Source: Hypomesus transpacificus (Eukaryota; Chordata; Actinopteri; Osmeriformes; Osmeridae). From it: a stretch of DNA of 64,000 bases. Numbering within the stretch: position 1 is the first letter of the stretch; every line of letters starts with the position of its first letter. Location of the stretch: contig NC_061077.1 in the NCBI RefSeq assembly GCF_021917145.1, forward strand, positions 14,527,420 through 14,591,419. Reading direction: 5' to 3'. Shown one piece after another: positions 43,056-54,391 of this stretch. The notes beneath the pieces were generated by a model, which was not told where the DNA came from, ran no database searches, and saw nothing but the letters and a program-made list of their open reading frames with translations. The position numbers and the translations under genes are program-made.

Positions 43056-46000
43056 TCAGTACTGAGCCGTGAGGGTGACAGATGCCTCTATGGAGGACGC
43101 CACAGCACTGGGTGAAGCCACTGCGGGCGTCGCCGTGGGAACGGGCGCCGACAGTGCTTCGGCAGGTCGAGGGGTGGGCTTGGCAATCGGCATTGGGATG
43201 AAGATGTTGGATGCGGAGTGTTCGCTCAGGTACTCCCCTCCCTTCTCCTCGTAGTCCTGTCTGGTGATCCAGCCCTCCCCCTCCCCTCCCACCCCTCCAG
43301 GGGGGTGCTGCAGGGCCCAGTCGCAGGCACCGTACCAGGCATCCAGGGCTGGCCGTGACGCCATGGTCACCTGTGGAGAGAGAGGCCGGGTGTGGTTCCA
43401 TATGAACTCATGTTGATATGGAACAGGTCCATGTCTACTTAATAGCGCAGCACAGTAAGTGTTGTGGCACCATCTTTAGGCCAGACTTTAAATTTCTGAG
43501 ACACAGGCTCTGGGTTACCAAAGTAACCTAGGCAGAAATAAGCTGTGAGTCTGTAAACAAGGTATTTCACCTAGGTAACACAGGCCTACAGCAGGTATGC
43601 AGCATCCTTAAACTGACCTGAAAGTGTGACTGAAAGGGCCTGAGGGCCAGAAGCTCTCTCTCCACCCTTTCCTTCATGCCTGGGTACAGCAGGTTCCCTC
43701 CTGTCAGGAACACATTGCTCACCAGTGCCTCCTGTTGCCCTGGAGTATACCTGCACACAGACAAGAGCACTAAAAAGACTACCATCCACACTTCAACTAA
43801 TCCCACAACATGATATTGATTATAATTACTGTATTTTTAAGTAAGACTGAGATTGAGGATGTGTGTTTCTGTGTCCCTCACCTGCTCAGCACATATTCCA
43901 GGGTCTCCATCAAGCCCATCTGCTCCTCTCCAGTGAGGGACGGCTGAAAGAGGATTTCAGGGACACGCAGTCGCTCCGTGCCCACAAACAGCTGGTGGTA
44001 CTCTGCCATGTTGAACACCGGCTGGACAGAGGAGAGGGGAGGGTGGGTGAAGCGACAAAGGAAGGAAGAAGAGAAGGGAGGGACGAAGAGAAGGGCCATG
44101 TTGTGATTCAGGTGTAGGCCTGCTGTGTCAGTGCCGTTCCCAGCACCATGCTGTGTGTGTGTTTCCGTACCTGTGCTAGGCTGACCGACTTCTCCGTCTC
44201 TGTGTTCTCCTCACTGAAGTCTGGCTCTGCCTCGCCCACAACCTCCCCTTCCTCCATTGGATGCTCCAGCTCTGACACCTGACAGAGTTAACAATTCTGC
44301 AAGTTGAGACCACTGTCTGCAGTCTGATCAGCTCATACTGCAAATCCTCTTTTCTGGGACACTAGACCAGTGTGGGTGGTGTGTCACTCACCTCAGTCTT
44401 GCCCTCGGCCCCCTCACTGTGCAGGAGCCTATGCCTGCCCTGCTCCACAGCCACGCCCAGCTTGGAGATGTACGACTGCAGTTCCTCTGCCGAGTCCATG
44501 TTTAGCTCCACCAGCCTCTTATGGAACTGATCCAGGAGACCATCCTCCAGTAACTCCTACACACACACACACACACACAGTTAGGAGTGCCAAGAGTCTG
44601 CAATGACGAGACATAGAGCCGAGATCTTCACCTGTATGGCCAGAAGTTTATCCAGGCGTTGTTGGTCTTGCTGGAGCTTCTCCTCTCGGCGGCGGGTGTT
44701 AATCTCCTGCAACCTCCTCAGCTGCTGGGCCCTCCTCTCCTGGCGCTCCTCCACACTCACAGCGCCCCCTAGCACCTTGGCTGAGAAGGGCAGCTGTATA
44801 CGGTGCACCTCCCGCTCATAGAACTCTGGGCTGCGCCACTTCTCCAACTCTTGAGAAGGAAACATTTAAATAAGTTGTGTGTGTGTGTGTTGCCCTGGTG
44901 GTAGCTGTGTGTGTGTGTGTATGTGTGTTACCCTGATGGTAGTCTGGGCGTGTGTGTGTTACCCTGGTGGGAGCTGTGTGTGTGTTACCCTGGTGGCAGC
45001 TGTGTGTGAGTGTGTGTGTGTAACCCTGGTTGTAGTCTGTGTGTGTGTTACCTTGGTGGTAACTGTATTTGAGTGTCTGTTAGCCTGTCGGTAGTTGTAT
45101 ATGTGTGTGTTACCCTGGTGATAGTCTTTGCGTGTGTGTGCACGTATGTATTGCCCTGGTCTGTGTGTGTGTGTGTCTTCATTTGGTGGTAGTGTGTGGG
45201 TTACCCTGGTGGTAGTCTTTGTGTGTGTGTGTTACCATGGTGGTAGTCTTTGTGTGTGTGTGTTACCATGGTGGTAGTCTTTGTGTGTGTGTGTCTTACT
45301 CTGGTGGTAGTGTGTGGGTTACTGTGGAGGTAGTCTGTATGTTTGTGTGTGTGTGTGTCTTACTCTGGTAGTAGTGTGTGGGTTACCCTGGTGGTAGTCT
45401 TTGTGTGTGTGTGTGTGTGTGTGTCTTACTCTGGTGGTAGTGTGGGTTACCCTGGTGGTAGTCTTTGTGTGTGTGTGTGTGTCTTACTCTGGTGGTAGTG
45501 TGTGGGTTACCCTGGTGGTAGTCTGTATGTGTGTGTTACCCTGGTGATAGTCTTTGTGTGTGTGTTATCCTGGTGGTAGCCTGTGTGTGTATGTGTGTGT
45601 TACCCTGGTGGTAGTCTGTGTGTGTGTGTTACCCTGGTGGTAGTCTGTGGCAGTGTAGCTGTGCTCATGCAGCAGCTCCTCCATGCGGCTGAGGGTGATG
45701 GCTGCTAGGTGGCCTGGGTACTTGAGCTGAAGGAGACGCTGCAGGTAGGACGAGGCATGAAACCCCCCCACGTTCACACGCTTGCAGTTCCCCGCATCCA
45801 GCCTGGGGAACCACCGTACGGACAACATTCATGGAGGGCAGAGTATGTCAAAGGGAAAATAACTGACAGTTGATGATTTTATATCAAACATCTAGGCCTC
45901 CTAGAGTGAGTTCCTCCTAAATTATTCACGTGTCGTTTACTTTGTCAGATCTCCAAAACTTCACCCAAATGAATAAAACTATTTGTGAGGAGGATAGACT

Positions 46001-52001: not shown

Positions 52002-54391
52002 ATGGCTCACTTAATCCGACACAAGATCACCAATAAACTGACCAATGCAGCCCACACGGTGTCCAACAAGTCCCAGGCCAAGGTCAGCGGTGTGTTTGCC
52101 AGGCTGGGATTCCAGGCCGCCACAGACGAGGAGGGTCTGGGCTTCGCAGGCTGCGACGACCTGGATTATGACTACAGGCAGGGGATGCAGATGGATGTGC
52201 TGCCCGGGGACGAGGAACGGGGAGAGATGGACGGAGACGGAATGATGGAGGGAGACAGCCACTACCAACGAGATGGCACCAGACCCCGCTCCTCCTCAGT
52301 CAAAAGCACAGGCCTTCCTAATGAGCTGCAGTCAGAGGACAAACCCAAAATCACTTCGTGGGAAGCAGGGTGGAATGTCACAAATGCTATTCAAGTAGGC
52401 TATCATTTAATTTTCGTTAACATTTTGCGACCTTTATTGCCAATTGGCGTTAGGCAATATGCCTGACGCATATGAGGGGGAATTGAACACTTTGGGCCTA
52501 AAGTCACCTTGAACAATAAGATGTAGGCTAAGCCTTTTAACCAAAACGATAAAGCATGGTCTGTATTTCGCCATCGAACGAATTCTGGACTGTATTTCGA
52601 TAGATTCTTAACTTCACATAACCTCAAACAAAGACGTATGTTAACCCTTTATAATATGTTTCGTCGGCTAATTTGGCCAATTAATGCACAACAGTCTCTG
52701 TTTTATTATTTATTTAAAGAATAAGGGAATTAATTTGGATTTGACGTGAAATATAATGGGATTATTCATCCTGAAATCTTTTATCGGTCAAAAAACAGCC
52801 TCCTCGTCAATTTGAGATCGCGACTGCACGCGCCTGATTAGCCTCGGGCACGATCATGACATCATTATTCTTACAGCCACATAATAAAACGGCATGATTT
52901 AAAAAAAGAGGCGATATTTGTTTTTTGCTATCTAGATTCAATGTTGCATGTCTTGAAAATGCCATAGGTAATACACAATGCAAAATAAAATATAACAAAA
53001 ATAATACTAAGCGCAAAGTCTTCTCTCGGTAGGCCTATTGCCCTCACAAATGTGTTTTTGCACGGCTAATGTGTTTAATTCGTTTATGATATAGTTATAT
53101 ACCAACAATACATGTGATTGATGCGCGGCCGGCTTGGCCGGAGAGGCTGTCACTCTGATGAGGTCTTGTCCATAAACACTCCACTGCGCTTCTGTGTCCG
53201 CAGGGCATGTTCGTCCTTGGCTTACCATATGCCATTCTGCATGGCGGATACCTCGGACTCTTCCTCATCATCTTCGCCGCCGTGGTGTGCTGCTACACCG
53301 GGAAGATTCTGATCGCCTGTCTTTACGAGGAGAACGAGGACGGACAGCTGGTGCGCGTGAGGGACACGTACGTGGACATCGCCAATGCATGCTGTGCGCC
53401 AAGGTTCCCATCCCTGGGCGGACACATCGTGAACGTGGCTCAGATAATTGAGCTGGTGATGACGTGCATCCTGTATGTGGTGGTCAGTGGCAACCTGATG
53501 TTAAACAGTTTCCCAAGCCTACCGGTGTCTCAGAAGGCTTGGTCCGTCATCGCTACCGTGGCCCTTCTTCCCTGCGCCTTCCTCAAGAACCTCAAGTCCG
53601 TCTCCAAGTTCAGCTTGCTTTGCACCGTCGCACACATTGTCATTAACGTCTTGGTGATCGCCTACTGCCTCTCCAGAGCACGTGACTGGGCCTGGGAGAA
53701 AGTCAAGTTCTATATCGACGTAAAGAAGTTTCCCATTTCCATCGGCATCATCGTGTTCAGCTACACATCACAGATTTTTCTTCCATCGTTGGAGGGCAAC
53801 ATGCAGAGGCCAAGCGAGTTCCACTGCATGATGGACTGGACCCACATATCCGCCTGCGTCCTCAAGGGGTTGTTTGCACTGGTGGCTTACTTGACTTGGG
53901 CTGACGCCACCAAGGAAGTAATCACCGACAACCTGCCATCCACCATTCGAGCGGTTGTCAACCTGTTCTTGGTTTCCAAGGCGCTGCTCTCCTACCCGCT
54001 GCCATTCTTTGCTGCCGTGGAAGTTATGGAAAAGTCCCTGTTCCAGGGCGGAGGCCGCTCCATGCTCCCTGACTGTTACGGGCCTAGCGGCCAATTGAAG
54101 TCCTGGGGGCTAGGCCTCCGGATCGGCTTGGTGGTTTTCACGTTGCTCATGGCTATCTTTGTGCCGCATTTCGCTCTCCTAATGGGCCTCACGGGGAGCC
54201 TCACAGGGGCAGGCCTATGCTTCTTGCTCCCCAGTCTGTTTCATCTAAAGCTCCTTTGGAGAAAACTCTTATGGCACCATGTGTTCTTTGACGTCGCTAT
54301 CTTCGTTATAGGTGGCATATGCAGCATATCTGGGTTTATTCACTCTGTTGAGGGGCTGATAGAGGCTTATAAATACAACCTTCATGACTGA
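52002..54391 (+). CDS. slc32a1: Vesicular GABA/glycine transporter (VGAT/VIAAT)
   Basis: Two exons, 52002-52394 (131 codons) and 53204-54391, with an 809-bp phase-0 intron. The total is 526 aa (human 525). The protein is the proton-coupled transporter that loads GABA and glycine into synaptic vesicles of inhibitory neurons (AAAP family). Exon 1 encodes the long acidic cytosolic N-terminus ([20 protein letters not shown]...[13 protein letters not shown]). Exon 2 encodes all membrane helices, starting [20 protein letters not shown] and including [37 protein letters not shown] and [16 protein letters not shown]. The core is nearly invariant across vertebrates and no residue looks damaged. The two-exon structure and the adjacent actr5 match human 20q11.23. 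The exon-2 acceptor is ccgcag at 53198-53203. AATAAA lies at 54525. Confidence 0.98.

Follow-up and report, generated by a model that had tools for sequence, protein, structure and literature searches.

A minisatellite built from the exon 3-intron 3 junction of actr5 in Hypomesus transpacificus, and junction arrays at other exon ends of the same genome

Intron 3 of actr5 in Hypomesus transpacificus consists almost wholly of imperfect copies of its own exon-3/intron-3 junction. It lies in a window of 64,000 nucleotides, which is the whole stretch of DNA analyzed here and to which the actr5 coordinates given below refer. An intron of this kind raises the question of how a splice site can become the unit of a tandem repeat, what the copied donors might do to the splicing of the gene, and whether the arrangement is peculiar to actr5 or recurs at other exon ends. 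The anatomy of the array, a gradient of copy likeness on its exon side and the recurrence of the design elsewhere in the genome were all observed directly, and they are described before its possible origin is considered.

Anatomy of the array in actr5 intron 3

On the minus strand, exon 3 (170 bp; 45633-45802) and exon 4 (218 bp; 44632-44849, beginning with AGTTGG at 44849) flank an intron of 783 bp (45632-44850, minus strand), as read from the sequence. Translation of the joined exons 3, 4 and 5 gave a single open frame, and exons 3 and 4 matched Arp5 in the PDB with E values of 3.4e-25 and 2.7e-26, respectively, while exon 1 gave a Pfam actin match slightly under the cut-off. The terminal sequence of exon 3, GACTACCACCAGG / CCACAGACTACCACCAGG, has its last base at 45633, and the authentic donor, GTAACA (45627-45632, minus strand), is the only GT that leaves the frame across exons 3, 4 and 5 open. 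At its other end the intron closes with a short, unique segment containing the acceptor CTCAAG (44850-44877, minus strand).

A minisatellite made of the exon-3/intron-3 junction plus a CA tract extends over positions 44878-45646 (minus strand), as determined with Tandem Repeats Finder, a core scan and shuffled sequences. When up to six substitutions were allowed and the exon's own copy was counted, the core scan recovered 25 cores of CTACCACCAGGGTAAC, 20 of which keep the GT; these counts agree with the first-pass annotation, which had estimated that about 25 junction copies fill the intron and that about 20 units retain the GT. At no more than four substitutions, 22 copies of CTACCACCAGGGTAAC were found inside the intron, compared to a mean of 0.4 and a maximum of 4 in 300 dinucleotide shuffles. 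The copied exonic portion had earlier been put at 11 bases and is in fact longer: the last 17 bases of exon 3, CACAGACTACCACCAGG, make up the exon-derived half of the unit. Copy 2 repeats these 17 bases exactly, followed by the donor and a CA tract. The cores are spaced 21-43 bp apart with CA tracts between them, and two unit types, GGGTAACCC and GAGTAAGAC, alternate in part of the array. Likeness to the junction is higher for units nearer the exon (Spearman 0.53, p 0.008; 24 units), which is what seeding from the exon side predicts and accords with the earlier suggestion of a minisatellite seeded at an exon-intron boundary. Tandem arrays are often mis-assembled, and the locus could in principle be an assembly or collapse artefact. 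We regard this as highly improbable, given that the units differ among themselves by 0 to 6 mismatches in the 16-base core, that the flanks are unique coding exons within a 15-Mb contig, and that unrelated genes show the same design.

The array is of a kind already known, namely the mirage, or donor-anchored VNTR. Its tandem units combine exon with intron sequence from the same boundary and carry the AG/GT signal in many but not all copies (20/25), as mirages do, and the GT of its first unit is the exon's own donor (45632), as in a VNTR of the ABCA7 type. In lancelets, mirages are described as minisatellite-like tandem duplications of an exon-intron boundary in Adh3, in the globins BflGb6 and BflGb9, in TnC and in PGBD5, with regular splicing reported as undisturbed (PMC3087553, PMC3902484). 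According to these descriptions, the lancelet arrays resemble those of the fish in that many units keep splice signals and in that duplication may involve a 5' or a 3' splice site. Their globin units are 150-160 bp long and few in number (10-72 bp in Adh3), whereas the actr5 spacings are 21-43 bp; their mechanism is called unclear, and the descriptions hold no CA-microhomology rule, whereas CA seeding is proposed below for the fish; and length and somatic instability were observed in lancelets, whereas the actr5 array is known from one assembly.

The VNTR in intron 18 of human ABCA7 is described as having a 25-bp unit, about 24 reference copies and a first GT that is the exon-18 donor (PMC5954066). 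Use of the next unit's donor, resulting in a frame-shifting retention of one unit, was observed there, and it is exon 19 skipping, not retention, that rises with VNTR length (PMC5954066). The two arrays are alike in being anchored at a donor and in that the donor of the next unit shifts the frame, which for actr5 is a prediction. ABCA7 units are C-rich and by description begin with the donor itself; those of actr5 include 17 exon bases as well. Population and RNA data exist for ABCA7, whereas actr5 is known here from sequence alone. Genes in human segmental duplications also contain internal tandem repeats, described as minisatellites of ~30 bp that alter gene structure and sometimes lie at exon-intron boundaries; unlike the actr5 array, about half of these are in the coding sequence of recent paralogues, and novel introns have been proposed to derive from them (PMC2812944). 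Two other candidates were set aside on the basis of their descriptions: CeRep25B, a splicing-linked minisatellite of C. elegans, which has a different design (PMC4039745), and the intron alleles of sea bream MSTN-2, which are fish intron repeats for which no boundary-spanning unit is described (PMC3045353). Among open-licence papers, we recognized no report of boundary-spanning arrays in fish.

Donor strength and reading frame in actr5

Donors were scored with a vertebrate donor matrix (in bits) and by the duplex energy formed with the 5' end of U1 (in kcal/mol). With this matrix, the authentic donor of intron 3 ranks last among the eight scored in actr5 (0.95 vs. 3.6-7.1 bits). Downstream of it lie 22 GTs, 18 of which read GTAA. 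Seven of the 22 score above the authentic donor with the matrix and six more are identical to it in nine bases, while in 11 the U1 duplex energy is no worse than that of the authentic donor, so that the field of decoy donors described in the first-pass annotation is present at the level of motifs. The further claim that units reading CAGA-GTAAG are closer to the U1 consensus than the authentic donor held by one measure only: the four CAGA/GTAAGA sites (45482-45487, minus strand, and again at 45429, 45363 and 45299) score higher with the matrix (1.80 vs. 0.95 bits) but pair less well with U1 (-5.3 vs. -5.9 kcal/mol). The top decoy by both scores is CAAG/GTAACA at 45046-45051 (minus strand; 3.16 bits, -6.5 kcal/mol), and it is the single decoy that surpasses the authentic donor in both.

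CA or AC repeats are known as splicing elements within fish introns, and CA repeats as binding sites of hnRNP L. The array might accordingly be imagined as a selected splicing device, a series of donor-plus-enhancer cassettes whose CA tracts and repeated donors concentrate U1 and hnRNP L near a weak donor; the CA tracts between the cores and the low rank of the authentic donor would both suit it. The donor columns, however, are not specially conserved, with G and T each varying in 3/24 and the other core columns in 0 to 6, and any downstream donor that came into use would lead to a premature stop. Selection for such a device therefore appears quite unlikely to us.

The consequences of donor choice were examined by testing the reading frame from 23 GTs. 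Only the first gives an open frame, and a premature stop is predicted from each of the 22 that follow. The nearest decoy, GTAACA at +29 (45598-45603, minus strand), shifts the frame and leads to a stop 78 nt into exon 4, so that both the first spacing of 29 bp and its frame-shifting effect, noted earlier, are borne out by the sequence and the frame test. The first in-frame stop is a TAA in the third core (GGATAAC; 45565-45567, minus strand). Since in-frame read-through meets this TAA, use of decoys beyond 45567-45565, or retention of the intron, would be expected to give a truncated product. Judged by the reading frame, ARP5 would not be obtainable from any downstream GT, and because the first donor alone gives ARP5, we take it to be the one still used in actr5 splicing. 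The downstream donors would be tolerated passengers, whose use would generate premature-stop transcripts that are probably degraded.

Regulated unproductive splicing offers another explanation, in which the decoys would set the level of ARP5 via nonsense-mediated decay and the length of the array would act as a dial. The uniform outcome of the frame test (a premature stop from 22/22 downstream GTs) and the 11/22 that equal or exceed the authentic U1 energy are what such a mechanism could use, and the increase of exon 19 skipping with VNTR length in ABCA7 offers a parallel, although one-unit retention itself is described as independent of length there (PMC5954066). The donor columns of actr5 nevertheless give no sign of special conservation, and the first unit is divisible by three in 5/11 of the CA-type arrays described below. 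We consider regulation of this sort unlikely, and the actr5 array itself is most likely functionless. The effect expected of an array of passenger decoys is mis-splicing at a low rate, possibly dependent on array length by analogy with human ABCA7.

Junction arrays at other exon ends

A DNA search of the genome with the actr5 region listed 63 matches elsewhere, of which many are CA-rich arrays. The 63 were 65-78 percent identical, mainly through similarity of the CA tracts where inspected, and no second copy of the actr5 locus was present among the matches listed. Nineteen of the first 20 distinct match places were fetched (the place on contig C210 was left out), and the array spans the 3' end of an exon in at least 6/19, a figure that is a lower bound because 11 of the other 13 were judged by their repeat unit alone. 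No exon end was seen at L015 and L019, where the array flanks were viewed on one strand. Donor arrays were found in thyroglobulin (tg; L009), with about 81 copies and a PDB match reaching the junction, and, each with a protein match, in an ABCB1/4-type P-glycoprotein gene (L014), in wdr70 (L023) and in an Abl-interactor gene (L024); two others, L012 and L013, adjoin open frames without a database match.

Two more introns of the P-glycoprotein gene have donor arrays, one clear (30-bp unit, six copies, no CA) and one weaker. An exon of the same gene, which gave an ABC_membrane match, has at its start an acceptor array composed of (GT)n-TAG plus 17 exon bases in about 10 copies that run up to the edge of the locus. 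Within 8 kb (L014:1-8001), four splice boundaries of this P-glycoprotein-like gene are thus touched by arrays, namely one acceptor and three donors, of which one is weak; splicing at a downstream donor would leave the frame intact where the first unit measures 33 or 30 bp. At L013:3660-3920, a short exon has its acceptor present three times on one side (its own included, with a GATGAT tract) and its donor in about 34 copies with a CA tract on the other.

The whole genome was also searched for tandem CAG/GTAACACACA, i.e., CAGGTAACACACA repeated within 6-36 bases. This returned 320 matches versus 0 for the reversed pattern, and the one-base controls CAGGAAACACACA (GT to GA) and CAGCTAACACACA (GGT to GCT) returned 19 and 35, respectively. 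The excess is weakened by the fact that the word itself is commoner (744 single occurrences of CAGGTAACACACA vs. 267 of CAGGAAACACACA), and it is small when counted by clusters, with 6 among the listed CAGGTAACACACA rows (at least 8 when L013 and L014 are added) vs. 6 for CAGGAAACACACA and 4 for CAGCTAACACACA, the listed rows being about 100 of the 320 and about 220 remaining outside the cluster tally. It is by their location that the clusters are distinctive: all six among the listed rows lie at an exon end (three protein-supported, three with an open frame). Thyroglobulin and L012 were already known. The four new ones are adenylate cyclase and the plasma-membrane calcium pump (PMCA), each with a protein match, and L071 and L074, with open frames lacking a Pfam match; L074 presumably resembles RSBN1.

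Tandem donor words in general were considered as markers of mirages and dropped. Triple tandem CAGGTRAG gave 3431 matches genome-wide versus 390 for the reversed pattern, and the listed rows represent ~18 arrays. Flanks of 12 were fetched (the first six fetched were the first three, the fifth, the ninth and the thirteenth), leaving 6/18 outside the sample; nine were readable, two consisted entirely of array sequence and one was masked. By eye, 0/9 of the readable upstream flanks placed the array at an exon end, and one of the nine cases is a repeat within a probable coding exon. Donor words therefore expand away from splice sites too, and the positions of the CAGGTRAG arrays compared with those of CAGGTAACACACA indicate that what recurs is donors running directly into a CA tract, together with scattered others, rather than tandem donor words. 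Donor-like units were not enriched over shuffles in 104 arrays from 51 sources (317 kb), with 6 percent at p<=0.05. On the acceptor side, a search for GTGTGTGTGCAGG pairs gave 181 candidate matches versus 44 for the reversed pattern. L067:220-441 contains a tandem 18-bp repeat (EPDPGV), apparently within an open coding exon, whose units read in places CAGGTGAG.

Taken as a whole, 11 further exon ends with the junction-array design were found in the same Hypomesus transpacificus genome. Those in thyroglobulin, the P-glycoprotein gene (two introns), wdr70, the Abl-interactor gene, adenylate cyclase and the PMCA calcium pump are protein-supported, and four (L012, L013, L071 and L074) have an open frame only. 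Including actr5, this amounts to 12 clear donor junctions (8 protein-supported, 4 open frame), a small, non-random and partly biased sample from one genome in which exon ends were partly judged by eye. Among 30 myosin-head exon loci chosen without regard to arrays, one exon end was touched by an array, as judged by eye (L034, with copies lacking GT). First units are divisible by three in 5/11 CA-type arrays (P-glycoprotein 33, wdr70 33, L071 24, cyclase 48 and calcium pump 21 bp), so frame-shifting is not a property common to the arrays: every downstream GT of actr5 is predicted to be poison, whereas these first units would keep the frame.

Unit sequence varies by gene and corresponds in each case to the exon it adjoins, which makes every array a local product rather than a copy of a dispersed element. 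That a pre-existing, dispersed CA-rich minisatellite landed at the exon end, or supplied it, would be in keeping with the many other CA-rich arrays of the genome, yet the exon with the copied bases matches Arp5 as far as TDY just before the junction, the unit in every other gene contains that gene's own exon end, and the 63 listed matches share mainly their CA tracts with actr5 where inspected. An origin from a dispersed repeat is very hard to credit on these grounds.

Possible origin of junction arrays

For an array that is local, we propose slippage or unequal exchange involving two CA stretches, one at the exon's 3' end and the other immediately past the donor. The donor lying between them would be duplicated in this way, each resulting unit in actr5 would comprise terminal exon bases, GTAAC as the donor and a CA tract, and the array would subsequently grow by ordinary minisatellite turnover. 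An intron-side CA tract is present in 11/11 CA-type arrays, a set whose members were picked because they resemble either a CA-rich array or CAGGTAACACACA. A CA run of at least four bases at the start of the copied exon part was found in 6/11 (5/11 under strict matching), namely in actr5 (CACA), L012 (ACAC), L013 (CACAC), P-glycoprotein (CACACAC), Abl-interactor (CACACA) and L071 (CACAC). For L012 and Abl-interactor, one mismatch was allowed in delimiting the copied part; under strict matching L012 still has CACACA and Abl-interactor is without such a run. The exonic run is shorter than four in the calcium pump (3 bases) and in tg, wdr70, adenylate cyclase and L074 (0-2). With 5/11 lacking an exonic CA run of four, and one P-glycoprotein array lacking CA, CA slippage is not the sole route, and the CA seeding rule is a weak one. 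The acceptor of L013 has GAT in the exon and a GATGAT tract in the intron.

We consider it very probable that these elements belong together, i.e., that the actr5 array is a mirage formed by tandem duplication of the boundary, putatively born by CA slippage, and that the gene is spliced at the first donor with the decoys as passengers, most likely without function. The broader proposal is an even call: in this fish, junctions at which an intronic microsatellite meets a matching exonic string may repeatedly serve as birthplaces for minisatellites, on the donor side and probably on the acceptor side too, in which case there would be a class of genes that carry arrays of their own splice sites. 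The 12 arrays, several of which occur in conserved genes, suggest that repeats can be born where a microsatellite follows a splice donor.

Junction arrays appear to represent a recurrent route by which small repeats originate at splice sites, one known from lancelets and human ABCA7. Reports of boundary-spanning minisatellites have treated lancelet genes one at a time and, in human, ABCA7, whose array length is associated with risk of disease; the present analysis adds 12 clear donor junctions from a single fish genome, together with a weak seeding rule and clean predictions. These loci can be used to ask how the spliceosome selects one donor from some twenty similar ones, and they are places where incorrect gene models and overlooked splice polymorphism are likely. 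If the birthplace reading is true, choice among near-identical tandem donors would be a natural, length-graded experiment, and the microsatellite-rich introns of fish would be linked to variation in mis-splicing and to intron gain.

Microsatellites also adjoin other splice sites of actr5. At the acceptor of intron 4 (44557-44579, minus strand), a (GT)n tract ending in AG stands immediately before the exon, flush with the splice site, and is like a pre-mirage state. At another donor, CACAG/GTACGGAAACACACACACACAGC (44148-44175, minus strand), a CA tract begins ~9 bases past the junction, and no array is present. The neighboring gene in the window has a large coding exon for a transmembrane amino-acid transporter on the plus strand (53162-54391, with the transporter frame at 53162-54388; Pfam Aa_trans, E 1e-94), which we take to be slc32a1.
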